From Planctomycetota bacterium (GTDB lineage Bacteria; Planctomycetota; UBA1135; GCA-002686595): a stretch of DNA of 64,000 nt. The translations under genes were made by a program, and so were the position numbers. The stretch is taken from the NCBI GenBank assembly GCA_947484275.1, contig CANKOY010000009.1, forward strand, positions 1 through 64,000. Reading direction: 5' to 3'. Position 1 is the first letter of the stretch. Each line of letters opens with the position of its first letter. The notes beneath the pieces are model-generated. The model saw only the letters and a program-made list of their open reading frames with translations, made no database searches and was not told the DNA's origin. Shown here piece after piece: positions 4,835-56,726 of the stretch.

Positions 4835-4880
4835 AGCAACGCTGCCAGCGTTCGCCGTCGACACCCGGTAGCGTTACTTC
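4833..4880. terminator. Putative bidirectional terminator between convergent genes
   Basis: Two convergent genes end at 4834 (+) and 4874 (-). The segment contains an 11-bp stem with one mismatch (GAAGCAACGCT at 4833-4843 against AGCGTTACTTC at 4870-4880). A competing perfect 6-bp hairpin, AACGCT-GCC-AGCGTT, sits inside it. The T-run is weak. Called from its position and the dyad symmetry only. Confidence 0.4.
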
Positions 4881-7744
4881 ACTGAGACTGGGCCGCGGAT
4901 GATCGACTCGATACGGCCGTCAGGTGTCAACACCAGCGTCGTCGGGAGCGGTAGTCGATCGAGGTCTACGATCTTGGAGATTTCGCCCGCGTCCGGACTG
5001 GAGTCGTCCGGCAGGTAAAAGGCGGTGAACTTGCCGCCGCGCTCGCGCAGCAGCGCGTCCGCCTTCGAGCGCTGCGTCGCGCCGTCGAGTCCGATGGCGA
5101 CCACACGTACCTCTCCGCGTTCAAAGATGTGCTGCAAGTCGGGAATCTCCGCTACGCAGGGGGAGCACCAGGTGGCCCAGAGGTTGACGTACAAGCGCTT
5201 GCCCGCAGCCAGCTTCACCGCATCGAATGTTGCCTCGACGCCCTGGCCGTCGAGCAGTTTCAAAGGGGGGAGCGCGTCGCCAACAGCAAGCTTGAGCCCC
5301 TGGGGTAGGGAATCGGGCAAAGGCCGAGGGCGGGCGAGCACAGGCTCTGATTTTCCGCTGCCTTCGACCAACAGCGCGCGCGAATTGGCCGCGAGCGATC
5401 CGAAGGACTCGCGCTTCGCCCCGGGCCAGATCACTTCTACTGCCGCGCTGTCCGACGCGCCCAGGCCGAAAACCAACTCCGCTGCCTGACTCGAAGCGAA
5501 ACCCGTTCCGCGGGCGAGCAACTGTGCCGTCTTGCCCTGGGCAGTTGTGACCACGACCACGGCGCCGATGGCTTCGTGCTGCGTGCTATTCGCGCGCAAG
5601 CGCAACTTGAGGAAGTGTTGAGACGCAGTGCCCGGCGTCGCCGCGTCGTTTCGCCACAAACTGTGGCGATCGCGCTGGATGTGGTGCACGAACAAATCAA
5701 CGTCACCGTCGTCGTCAAAGTCGCAGGCCAAAACGCCCCGACCATCGTTGGGCGAATCCGCGCCCGACAGATCAGAGGCGTCGAAGAAACCGTCGGCACC
5801 GCGATTCAACCACAGCTTGTCGCGCTCATTGCCGCTGAAGGACATGCCCTGGGCGAACAATTGTGAACCCTGCTCGGCGAGGTAGGCCGAGTCGTTCGCC
5901 TTGCGCGGCATGCCGATGCTCGAGTTCTGCTTCGCATCCAGGGAGGACGCCACCACGTGGCGCCAATAGGAGCTTCACGTGTCCGCGGCCGTTTCACCGG
6001 TGATGAACCCGTTGGCGCAGAAAATATCCAGGCGGCCGTCGAGATCGAAGTCGGCGAGCACCGCGCTCCAGGCCCAATTCGCGTCGACGCCGCCTTTCGC
6101 GGGGGCAAGACGTTCGAACGACGGGCCCGTGTCGGAGCTGCGCCCGAGGAAAATTGAATTGCCCGCGGCCATCTTGAGCAACTGCGAGCGGTGCTGCTCG
6201 TCACCCGCAATGCGCCCGAGGATGCGATTGCCCGCGGTGGAGGACATGTTTGCCACGTAGAGATCCAACTTGCCGTCGTTGTCGAGATCGCCCCAGGTGG
6301 CGCCCATGCCGTTGCCCAAGTCGCTGACACCGAGCGTCTCCGCCACATCCGTGAAGCGCCCCGCGTCGTTGCGCCAAAGGGAATTCACGCCGTAGTCGTT
6401 GGCGACATACAGGTCCTGATCGCCGTCGCCGTCGAAGTCCGCGGCGGCGGCGGCGTAGCTCCAGCGGGTGTCCGCGAGCCCCACCGAGCTCGCCACATTC
6501 TCGAAGCCCTTCCCCCCGAGATTGCGAAGCAGGAGATTCGGCGTCCCGTTGTTCGCGTCGGTCCACGAGTCGTTCGGCGCAACATCGGTGCGGCCGTAGT
6601 TCGCGACGAAAACGTCGAGCCAGCTGTCTCCATCGAAGTCGAACACGCTCAAGGAGAAACCGTGGCACAGCGCGTCGAAGCCAAGCTGCGCGCCGCTCTC
6701 CGTGAACTTGCCCTTGCCGTCGTTGACGTACAGCCGCAGGCGATTGCCGCCAGGTACTTTGCTGTCCGTTTTCCAACCGACGTCGGCCACGGCCAGATCC
6801 TGGTCGCCGTCGTTGTCGAAATCGAAGAAGACGGGGCCCGTGCCGCCGGCGGGCTCGGCGACGCCCGACTGCGCAGCGCGTTCGAAAAAACCGCCTTCGG
6901 GGCGAGACATGTACAGGAAATTTTGCGGGCGGCTGGGCAAGAAGATGTCGTAGCCACCGTCGCCATCCACGTCGGCGGAGGCCGCGCCGTTCCAAGCGAA
7001 TCCGTTTTCGGTCACGTCGGCAAAGCGCACGGACGTGTGCACGACTCCGGCCGAGGCGCTGACGTCGCTGAACAGCGCGGTCGAGCGCTCCGAAAGGTCC
7101 AGCGATGTCAATTCAAACAGCGCCAGTTGCCATTGATTGCCCGTCAACTCCACGCGCGCGTTGGCCCATGCCACAAGCGATCGCGGACCTCCGTCGATGC
7201 CGAGGCCGAGCATGGTGATCTTGAAGCGGATTTTTCCGGCCAGTGGCGCCTTCGACTCGAATTCGGCGCCCTTGACCTTCCACAGCACGAAGTCCACGCA
7301 GCGCCACGGGGCCACGTGCGACGCGATGCTCGACAGGAATTCGGTGCGGCCGACGATCCTGCGCGACTTGACTTCAAAGGTCGTGCGCTGCGCTGACAGC
7401 GAAAGGTCCTTGACACTCGCCAGCGCGAGCTCGCTCCATGACTGTCCGGCAAAGCCGGGCGTCAACCACTCCTCGGCTGCGAGAAAATCCCGCCGCCGAA
7501 GTTTGTCGGAGAAGTCGTACAGCGTGTTGGCGACGCTCTCGGTCCAGGTCTCCACACGTTCCATGTCGCGCACGGGATCCTCGGGATCCGCAATGCTGAT
7601 TTCGCGCGGCAGGATAGGCGCCTGGCTCAGAGTGACCGCGGCGGGCGAGGCGGGGCTCGGTTCGTCAGCGCAGGCCCAAAGCGGAAGCGCGGCGAGCAGC
7701 AGGCCAGCGCGCGAATGCCAGTGGGGTCGTCGATGGGGTTTCAA
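4874..7744 (-). CDS. CRTAC1-like FG-GAP/ASPIC lipoprotein fused to TlpA-type thioredoxin, with in-frame UGA (candidate selenoprotein)
   Basis: Read through one TGA at 5977-5975 this is a 956-aa protein; the halves on each side (589 and 360+ aa) are in the same frame. It starts with a lipoprotein signal (LLLAALPLWACADE). FG-GAP/VCBS repeats follow at about residues 230-590 (D-x-D-G-D motifs such as DVDGDGGYDIF), then another FG-GAP unit (DFDDDGDVDLF). The ASPIC/UnbV domain comes next (AIGAVVVV, LVFGLGASD, VEVIWPG). The C-terminal thioredoxin fold carries WCSPC, as in TlpA/ResA disulfide reductases acting outside the cytoplasm. The UGA is codon 590, in the context ADT-U-SSYWRHVV. A 6-bp hairpin with loop GTG begins 12 nt after it. 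CRTAC1-like proteins are usually uninterrupted across this junction. Alternatives are a nonsense mutation or a base error. One gene rather than two is well supported; Sec insertion is inferred. Confidence 0.8.
5948..5977 (-). promoter_or_regulatory. UGA codon plus SECIS-like hairpin in the CRTAC1-TlpA gene
   Basis: On the minus strand the TGA (5977-5975) is followed by 12 nt, then CGCCAC (5962-5957), loop GTG (5956-5954) and GTGGCG (5953-5948): a perfect 6-bp stem. The loop starts with G, 18 nt after the UGA. Bacterial SECIS elements are described as short hairpins whose apical loop has a G in its first two positions, about 16-37 nt from the UGA. The fit is by eye, with no folding calculation. 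Confidence 0.5.
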
Positions 7745-8832: not shown

Positions 8833-10596
8833 TCAGGGCACGACTTCGACGCTGAGTTGATTGATCCACGTGCGGAACGCCGCGCCGGAATTCGAGGAGA
8901 GGACAATCAACTCGAGTTGCTGGGTGCCTGAAATGAAGCGCGACGCGTCGGGAATGGTCAGCAGCAACTCCTGTTGCGCCGATCCCACGCTGCCCACATG
9001 TACCCACCGAATGCGCTGCGTGAGCGGTTGAATCAGTCCCAGACGCACCGTGACTCCCGATTGCGGCCCACGCAGGTGGGCGCGCACGCGCAGGCGCTCC
9101 CCAGGCTGAGCAACGGTGTTGAAGACGAAACTGTCGGCCGCGAATGCCTGGGCGCCGACTTCCGCAATGCCTTGCGCGAACTCCAGTGCGTCGGGCATGA
9201 ATGTGTCAGACAGCGCGCCTGATCCCGGACCACCGCGCAGGTGCTTCGCGGTCACCGGCTTGCTGGCGTTGGCCGTGTGCTCGTTCTGGAGGATGGACGT
9301 GGATTGACTCAAAAGGAACGACGCCACCAGGTCCGGGTCTCCATCGCCATCGACGTCCGTGGCGTCAAGGGCGCTCAGGCCCTGGCCCGGCAAGGCATAG
9401 ACGCCGACGTGTTCTGGCTGCGGCGAAAACACGCTCGGTGCGGCAACCGCCGTGACGTTGAAGGCCACCACGAATTTCACCTGAGTGGCGTCGAACCAGC
9501 CGAGGTCCGAGCGACCGTCGGCATTGAAGTCGGCTGCGACGAGTTGCTGCGCGTTTAGACCCAGACCCGGGGACAGGACCTCGTCCATCCGAGGCGAACT
9601 CGTGCTGCCGCGATTCATCAGTAGTGTTAGCTCGCGCTGCGCTGACGTTGCCGCCAGATCGTAAAGGCCATCGCCGTTGAAATCCGCGCCGGCGAGGCTC
9701 GCGATCGAACTCGGCGCGCCACTTGGGGTGGTGAAGGCAAGGCGTTCGTAGGCCCAAGCGCTTGCGTCCTGAAAGTAGATGTGAAGTCCGCCGCCGATGG
9801 CGCTGCCGGCGGCCACCGCGATGTCCATCCGACCGTCGCCATTGAAGTCGCCGGCGACGAGGTCACTGGCGAACCCGAAGCTGTAGCTCGAGCCTGGCGG
9901 AAGTCCGGCAGCCTGAGCGGCCAACTTCGAGATGTTCGTGGGCTGAGCGGAGAAGAGCGGCACCGGCGGAACCGTCGAGCTAAGTCCGAGGCCAGCCTGG
10001 TAGAACAGCTCGTGACCGACCCCGACGCTGACCAGGTCGTCGATCTGATCCCCGTTCACATCGCAGAGCACGACTATCTCGCCGCCCGGCGCTAGATCCA
10101 CCGTGGGCTCGGGTGCGAGGAATTCGATCCTGCCCGGCGCGCTAGGCACCGTTTGGATGAACAGCTTGGCCGTGCGCACGAAGAGGCCGGGGCTGGAGGG
10201 CAAGGGGCGCAGGTGTGCGGCGATCAAGTCGAGTGCTCCGTCGCCGTTCAAGTCCACGGCGCGCACACTGCGCGGCGAAGGAAGCGAATACACCTGGGAC
10301 TCCGTTCCCTGGGGACCGTAAATGCCGCCGAGCGTGATCCCGAGCGTACCGCCGTAGGGATTGCCGTAGTCGATACCCAAGCGAATCAGTTCCGGCATCC
10401 CATCGCCGTTCAAGTCGGCCCAAGTTGCGTCCGCAGTGCGCGTGGCGAAGGTCAATTCGGCGGATTCCTGCCAGAAGTCGTAGGCGTGAGTTGCCGTGCG
10501 CTCTTCAGCGGGCGGCGGATTGCTCCAGACCTTGCCCGTCAGCGGACCCGTCAGCAGGAAAGCAGCAGCGAGGACCAAAGTGGATTGGCAGGCCAT
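8833..10596 (-). CDS. Secreted FG-GAP/VCBS repeat protein
   Basis: A 587-aa exported protein. I chose ATG 10596 because AAGGA lies about 8 nt upstream and the protein then opens with a clean signal peptide (STLVLAAAFLLTGPL). At least six FG-GAP-like units follow between about residues 50 and 440, each with a Ca2+-loop motif such as DLNGDGMPEL, DLNGDGALDLI, DFNGDGRMDIA, DFNADGRSDLG and DVDGDGDPDLV. This indicates an integrin-alpha-like beta-propeller. The last 150 residues are a beta-rich domain without a recognised motif, ending at WINQLSVEVVP. There is no catalytic motif; the likely role is extracellular or surface binding, inferred. Confidence 0.85.
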   Translation of the reverse strand: MACQSTLVLAAAFLLTGPLTGKVWSNPPPAEERTATHAYDFWQESAELTFATRTADATWADLNGDGMPELIRLGIDYGNPYGGTLGITLGGIYGPQGTESQVYSLPSPRSVRAVDLNGDGALDLIAAHLRPLPSSPGLFVRTAKLFIQTVPSAPGRIEFLAPEPTVDLAPGGEIVVLCDVNGDQIDDLVSVGVGHELFYQAGLGLSSTVPPVPLFSAQPTNISKLAAQAAGLPPGSSYSFGFASDLVAGDFNGDGRMDIAVAAGSAIGGGLHIYFQDASAWAYERLAFTTPSGAPSSIASLAGADFNGDGLYDLAATSAQRELTLLMNRGSTSSPRMDEVLSPGLGLNAQQLVAADFNADGRSDLGWFDATQVKFVVAFNVTAVAAPSVFSPQPEHVGVYALPGQGLSALDATDVDGDGDPDLVASFLLSQSTSILQNEHTANASKPVTAKHLRGGPGSGALSDTFMPDALEFAQGIAEVGAQAFAADSFVFNTVAQPGERLRVRAHLRGPQSGVTVRLGLIQPLTQRIRWVHVGSVGSAQQELLLTIPDASRFISGTQQLELIVLSSNSGAAFRTWINQLSVEVVP

Positions 10597-11115
10597 CTCA
10601 ATTCCTTGTGCAGGCGGGAGGGGAACCCATGGGCAGTCGGCGAACGGCGAACGCAGTACCGTCGCCACCTGTGAGGGGCGGCACGCCGTTGCGACGAGAG
10701 AACACCCTGATTCACCCTGGGGAACACGAAATCACCGCGACCTCCGTGCATCGGAGTGCCTCGTAAGCGCTGCGCACGGACTGTGAATGGCGCACGCGTG
10801 TTCAAGGTCAGCTGACAGTGCGCCGGTCCGTAGTGCTCGCGTTGGACTTGGAGACCCGCCGCAACTCCGGGTGATTGCTGCGAACTCACGCGCACTGCCC
10901 ACCGCGCGCGTTTCGAGCCCTCTGAGCGCGAATGACATCAGCGCGAAGGACGCTCGGCAGATCTGCGGGGTCGGTCCTCGCGCGCTACAGGGCGAATACG
11001 AAGGCCACGTTGTTCAACTTGAGTTGAAAATCGCGGTGCGCCAGCTCGCAGGCGTGGGACGTCATGTCCATGCAGCCACTGGCGGACGTAGCGCTCGACA
11101 CTCGCCTCAGGGAAC
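10597..11115. other. Intergenic stretch without a supported gene
   Basis: About 520 bp between the FG-GAP gene and yaeQ-like gene. Short frames exist on both strands, but none shows a ribosome binding site, codon bias or recognisable motif. It presumably holds the promoter of the minus-strand FG-GAP gene; no clear -35/-10 pair was found. Confidence 0.4.
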
Positions 11116-56141: not shown

Positions 56142-56726
56142 ATGACTTGGATTCAAACAACTGCGCCGGCGGGCGCCGAGCAGGCGCTGCGCAAGGCGAT
56201 CGAGATGCAGCGCGCGCTGTATCCGAAGGAGTACGCGCAAGCGGTGTCGCCCGGAGGCGACAGCATCGTAACCGCCCACGCGTTGATGCCCGCGGCCCTG
56301 TTCCACGTGTTCGCGAGTTTCGGCGAGATGATGTCGCCCGATCTGCCCCTCAGTCGCGCGCAGCACGAGATGATCGCCACGGTGGTGTCGATCACCAACC
56401 GCTGCTTCTACTGAACCGAGGCCCATGCGGAGCTGCTCCGCAGGGTCACAGGCGATGATGCCCTCGTCCGGCAGTTGCTCGACGATCACCGGACAGCGGC
56501 CCTGAGCGAGCGCGACCGCGCGATGCTCGACTACGCAGTGCTGCTGACGCGCGATGCCGTCGCGATCTCGCCAGCGGAACACGACAAGTTGCGCGCCGTT
56601 GGCTTCGACGAACGCGCGCTGCTCCAGATCACGCTGATCGCGGCTTGGTTCAACTACATCAATCGCGTGGCGGATGCACTCGGCGTCGGCCGCGGAGCCC
56701 TCGGCGGGCATGAATCGCTGAAGTAG
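56142..56726 (+). CDS. AhpD-like (carboxymuconolactone decarboxylase-type) selenoprotein with CxxU
   Basis: 194 aa read through a TGA at 56412-56414 (codon 91). The N-terminal part ([32 protein letters not shown]) and the continuation ([46 protein letters not shown]) together give a complete alkylhydroperoxidase AhpD-type protein. In the family the active site is CxxC followed two residues later by His. Here it reads C88-F-Y-U91-T-E-A-H, so UGA sits exactly at the second, redox-active Cys. AhpD-like proteins with CxxU are among the known bacterial selenoprotein families. A SECIS-like hairpin follows. ATG 56142 chosen; an upstream GTG at 56112 is unlikely. Predicted thiol/selenol peroxidase. 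Confidence 0.87.
56412..56441 (+). promoter_or_regulatory. UGA codon plus SECIS-like hairpin in the AhpD-like gene
   Basis: TGA 56412-56414, 12 nt spacer, then GCGGA (56427-56431), loop GCTGC (56432-56436), TCCGC (56437-56441). The stem can extend by one pair, leaving loop CTG. With the 5-nt loop, G is the first loop base, 17 nt from the UGA. Spacer length is the same as in the CRTAC1-TlpA gene. Judged by eye. Confidence 0.65.

Follow-up and report, generated by a model that had tools for sequence, protein, structure and literature searches.

Can the single in-frame TGA that divides a long reading frame in this planctomycetal contig be read as selenocysteine (Sec) and, if so, what kind of protein carries it? 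The frame lies on the reverse strand of the window, i.e. the whole 64,000-nucleotide stretch of DNA analysed here. Read from 7744 to 4874 (-), it consists of 589 open codons, one TGA at 5977–5975 and a further 366 open codons, with a TAA stop at 4876–4874. The resulting gene (4874–7744, inferred TTG start) has 956 codons including Sec590, giving a read-through product of 956 residues in which the TGA context is NGFITGETAADT-U-SSYWRHVV. An earlier note on this locus had described two same-frame open stretches split by this TGA, the context ADT-U-SSYWRHVV, a perfect 6-bp hairpin with a GTG loop 12 nt past the TGA, and the domain order FG-GAP, ASPIC/UnbV, thioredoxin; all four descriptions held when checked by frame reading, hairpin position (5962–5948) and Pfam.

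The protein begins with an N-terminal signal sequence and a lipobox-like L-W-A-C (LPLWAC, Cys25; 7670–7744 (-)), and the Cys25 column was 97% Cys in a close set of homologues; that the product is an exported lipoprotein is inferred from sequence alone. An FG-GAP beta-propeller (approximately residues 249–690; 5675–7000 (-)) was identified by five Pfam FG-GAP stretches (PF13517/PF01839) and a Foldseek match to murine CRTAC1 (9etn), and is followed by an ASPIC/UnbV domain (residues 725–789; 5378–5572 (-); PF07593, 6.9e-13), so that the CRTAC1-family criterion of FG-GAP repeats and then ASPIC/UnbV is met. The C-terminal part is a TlpA/ResA-type thioredoxin domain (Redoxin/AhpC-TSA; residues 821–953; 4886–5284 (-)), supported by PF08534/PF00578 and by ResA structures in both sequence and fold comparisons. 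It contains a WCSPC motif (Cys860 at 5167–5165 and Cys863 at 5158–5156, (-)) and a proline conserved in 96% of members at the cis-Pro position (Pro934; the cis geometry itself was unchecked), and thus satisfies the criteria for a TlpA/ResA-like thioredoxin (i.e. thioredoxin fold, CxxC and conserved proline). A second FG-GAP protein is encoded nearby upstream (window 8836–10668 (-)), with no ASPIC match and no in-frame TGA.

Homologues with 44–67% identity over the full length were recovered by genome scan, mostly from Planctomycetota MAGs. Of the 24 closest relatives, all but three had a stop at codon 590 with similarity on both sides, TGA in each case. The family was present in 81 of the 392 Planctomycetota genomes searched; nearly all matches contained one TGA, and TGA-bearing members were found in 76 of the 392. 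Alignment placed an in-frame TGA exactly at the codon-590 column (5975–5977 (-) in the window) in 128 members, nearly all from Planctomycetota, with the usual motif N-G-[FY]-x-[TS]...D-x-U-[S/T/P]-x-[FY]-W around the Sec. Identity to homologues was the same on the two sides of the TGA (before/after: 67.5/66.4%, 58.5/61.2% and 56.3/57.3%), which meets one criterion for a bacterial selenoprotein, namely that the in-frame UGA and the coding sequence to either side of it are conserved. Outside Planctomycetota the family is represented by a single locus from Myxococcota (L025), whose hairpin fails the simple SECIS rule; Myxococcota was not surveyed as a phylum, and the wider spread rests on this locus alone. 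Some sub-branches carry TPR repeats after the thioredoxin. No conserved operon partner was found in the 44 loci examined, and no neighbour points to a substrate. One member (L140, 1274–4213 (+)) has three in-frame TGAs, the third followed at the usual spacing by a perfect hairpin, GCGCCAGGUCCUGGCGC; this may be a multi-Sec protein or an assembly error. A CRTAC1 family gene has also been reported to flank hydrazine-synthase-like genes in other bacteria (PMC12758564); its membership of the Sec family was unchecked.

The RNA downstream of the TGA provides the second line of evidence. The SECIS hairpin (5946–5964 (-)) has a GUG loop located 18 nt after the TGA, and its 6-bp core, CGCCAC-GTG-GTGGCG (5962–5948), grows to an 8-bp stem (5964–5946) that includes a G-U pair. 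The bSECIS consensus (PMC13188914) consists of a loop of 3–5 nt starting with G, a stem of 6–8 pairs and a distance of 17–18 nt from UGA to loop, and the family hairpins are alike in loop size, initial G, stem length and loop distance. Using this consensus and an energy limit of -7.5 kcal/mol, a rule-conforming hairpin was found after 104 of 129 TGAs of the family genes (these include a few outside the codon-590 column), compared with 10% of codons drawn at random from these genes; many of the failures fell just above the limit (-7.3 vs -7.5). Covariation was assessed across 113 sequences sharing one register, in which the stem pair +15/+25 (CG 52, GU 24, AU 21, GC 5, UA 3) had the highest mutual information among all column pairs, the pair +17/+23 occurred as AU, GC or UA, and the loop base at +19 was G in 112 of the 113, while in slid registers the paired share dropped from 95% to 72% or less. 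The most powerful control comes from within the family: non-Sec homologues keep the W-R/Q peptide without the full stem, and all six core pairs were intact in 104 of 116 Sec members vs none of 17 non-Sec members with the same peptide. A further criterion, a structurally conserved SECIS hairpin directly after the UGA, is thereby met. Ten loci (L164, L175, L176, L180, L183, L195, L203, L210, L218 and L222) have a SECIS-like loop 20–21 nt after the TGA; their sub-branches show U-P-P-F-W-K or different contexts, and the P-P-F-W-K-type sub-branch departs from the consensus both in this distance and in its shorter stems. An Rfam scan of the window returned no match, so the hairpin is not part of any catalogued RNA family.

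The machinery for Sec insertion, another criterion, is present in the window's own genome, where selA, selD and tRNA-Sec (anticodon tca) lie within 10 kb on contig C12 and selB is on contig C15. The clustered selD (G000 C12:49124-50077, L227) itself has one in-frame TGA. Among sampled Planctomycetota genomes with a TGA-bearing member, 76 of 76 had selA or selB, so that this check proposed in the earlier note, like the one for recurrence of TGA at the column, was passed. For selA by itself the figures were 71 of 76 vs 175 of 316 other genomes (p = 2e-11, uncorrected for relatedness), and the five TGA-bearing genomes without it are incomplete assemblies, each with a selB that scores above the family cut-off. 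UGA serves as the ordinary final stop in 62 of the family genes; the genetic code is therefore not reassigned, and this explanation was ruled out. The pattern also exceeds what chance would give. A mechanical scan of the window required of a TGA that both arms be open and coding-like in their third-position GC, and that a hairpin obeying the SECIS rules at -7.5 kcal/mol or below be present. Only three met all requirements (5977, 56412 and 29086), and a recognisable protein spans both sides only at 5977 and 56412. The latter lies in an AhpD/CMD-type gene (56142–56726 (+); NRCFYUTEAH; hairpin GCGGAG-CTG-CTCCGC), which belongs to a known selenoprotein family and supports Sec use on the same contig. 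Taken together, the UGA at codon 590 is almost certainly decoded as Sec, although this is a conclusion from sequence alone, without peptide data.

An AlphaFold2 model built with 23 sequences, in which residue 590 was modelled as Cys (pLDDT 87, pTM 0.84), places Sec590 within the propeller, in an insertion between strands 573–577 and 643–647, where it forms the first residue of a helix (590–601). The earlier note's placement of the Sec at the junction of propeller and ASPIC domain therefore failed. Foldseek identified murine CRTAC1 (9etn) as the best solved structural match, followed by ResA for the C-terminal domain. Murine CRTAC1 shares the arrangement of FG-GAP propeller and then ASPIC (sequence E 4e-26, fold E 7e-26), but it has no thioredoxin domain and lacks the Sec-bearing insertion, its residues 283 to 298 aligning to profile positions 509 to 658. 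The periplasmic reductases TlpA, ResA and CcmG share the WCxxC domain; in the window protein, however, this domain is fused to a propeller, and the Sec resides in the propeller rather than in the CxxC. The closest known selenoproteins in domain content are UGC-containing TlpA and UxxC redoxin (PMC13188914), which carry Sec in their thioredoxin active site, whereas in the window's family the thioredoxin retains two Cys and the Sec is located ∼270 residues upstream.

The residues that replace Sec are unusual. In non-Sec homologues the codon-590 residue was N, R, E, D, H or S, and none had Cys, so that the usual (but not required) selenoprotein criterion of a Cys form is unmet. In a tree of 144 propellers, Sec occurred on both sides of the midpoint root, with six changes on well supported branches; the simplest reading, though unproven, is that Sec is ancestral and was lost about six times. 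All sampled genomes with only non-Sec matches have selA, and the replacements are therefore gene-level events.

Loss of Sec was usually accompanied by changes in the fused thioredoxin. Its CxxC was present in 102 of 116 Sec members vs 1 of 16 non-Sec members (Cys860 and Cys863 in 88 and 87% vs 6%); most non-Sec members either had no thioredoxin domain or kept the domain without the CxxC, and a member with Ser at the Sec column (L220) retains the motif. In independent contrasts the CxxC followed Sec in 4–5 of six cases and never went the opposite way; six are too few, and the sign test did not fall below 0.05. The association has exceptions: a fused thioredoxin with CxxC is missing from 14 of the 116 complete Sec members, approximately ten of them having no detected thioredoxin domain at all. 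Sec therefore cannot always depend on a fused thioredoxin, and a strict Sec–thioredoxin fusion rule was rejected. Two Sec members without the domain (L145 and L166) have extra Cys at Sec+5 and Sec+13 (WCQVVASTxC), which could be alternative resolving Cys. The intramolecular selenol/disulfide relay proposed in the earlier note thus gains support from the Sec–CxxC association, but a fused relay is not universal.

The computation supports Sec decoding as far as sequence can, along with the family, the domain order and the Sec–CxxC association. Our preferred reading goes further: the gene likely encodes a selenoprotein of a large, apparently undescribed family that acts as an oxidoreductase recycled by its fused thioredoxin, where the redox chemistry, its direction, the substrate and the electron source are all inferred. 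Under this model, SelB and tRNA-Sec would decode the UGA at codon 590 via the downstream hairpin, and the product, an exported lipoprotein with a CRTAC1-type propeller, would act in the periplasm. The helix N-terminus at Sec590 would stabilise a selenolate, which may attack a propeller-bound substrate, perhaps a peroxide, disulfide, sulfoxide or organometal (its identity is not known). Cys860 of the fused thioredoxin would then reduce the oxidised selenium and Cys863 would resolve the intermediate, with a DsbD/CcdA-type membrane shuttle as the predicted electron source; a membrane protein of the DsbD type is present. Counting against the oxidoreductase model are the absence of peptide or activity data and the D/E/N/H replacements, which would fit a metal or ligand site.

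Those replacements suggest the main rival, a possible alternative in which the Sec is real but serves as a metal or substrate ligand, or has a structural role, in the Ca-rich propeller, with the thioredoxin used for another purpose, e.g. to maintain the selenol in reduced form or to act on other proteins. In its favour, the residues found in place of Sec are D, E, N, H, R or S, with no case of Cys; the Sec site also has Ca-binding DxDxDG loops on either side, and the CxxC is absent from 14 Sec members. Against it, the CxxC was lost alongside Sec in 4–5 of the six independent contrasts, even where the thioredoxin fold was kept. Furthermore, the model puts Sec at a helix N-terminus, a position that is frequent for redox Cys and Sec.

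The other rivals dispute the decoding itself. It is very unlikely that selenium plays no part and that the UGA is instead read as another amino acid or gives both truncated and full-length protein in regulated proportions. The unrelated residues at the Sec column of non-Sec homologues would be compatible with this, but selA or selB accompanied the TGA in every one of the 76 sampled genomes, the hairpin both fits the bSECIS model and covaries, and truncation at residue 589 would cut through the propeller. A sequencing error, a pseudogene or two separate genes can be all but excluded. While a lone TGA in an assembled MAG could in principle be an error, the same TGA recurs in independent MAGs from many genera at 45–67% protein identity on both sides, and this recurrence with equal identity on either side led us to reject all three.

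To the best of our knowledge, the family has not been described. Neither FG-GAP, ASPIC nor CRTAC1 appears among the 119 prokaryotic selenoprotein families inventoried in May 2026 (PMC13188914, Table 1), no NCBIfam 20.0 model scored above cut-off for the ten members scanned, and the NCBIfam models cited in PMC13188914 from Haft and Tolstoy 2025 gave no match. No relevant paper was found in the literature searched for selenoprotein or selenocysteine with FG-GAP, or for selenoprotein with ASPIC and Planctomycetes; matches to CRTAC1 were human or animal papers, and the family goes unmentioned in the deep-Sep paper. These searches support the earlier note's view that FG-GAP/ASPIC proteins are not among the classical selenoprotein families, and its overall claim of a candidate new family stands, with amendments regarding the Cys column and the location of Sec. 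The discovery methods described in PMC13188914 look for Sec aligned with Cys, and we infer that the family is missing from the lists because it offers no Cys forms to such methods. A bolder reading, which could as readily prove wrong as right, is that it constitutes a new class of selenoenzyme with a catalytic Sec on a CRTAC1-type propeller, built-in thioredoxin recycling and no Cys form, missed by Sec/Cys-pair searches.

With these results, the known selenoproteins gain a widespread family whose Sec lies in a beta-propeller of the FG-GAP/ASPIC kind, which existing lists do not include. They suggest that Sec/Cys pairing, a main discovery criterion (PMC13188914), misses families without Cys forms; if our reading is true, searches of this kind are blind to a family found in approximately a fifth of the sampled Planctomycetota genomes. 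Standard gene finders would cut the proteins at the UGA, and ‘CRTAC1 family’ entries in such genomes may therefore often be truncated, an inference for which databases were unchecked. Lastly, with the proposed relay, an ASPIC/FG-GAP protein gains a first biochemical role that can be tested.
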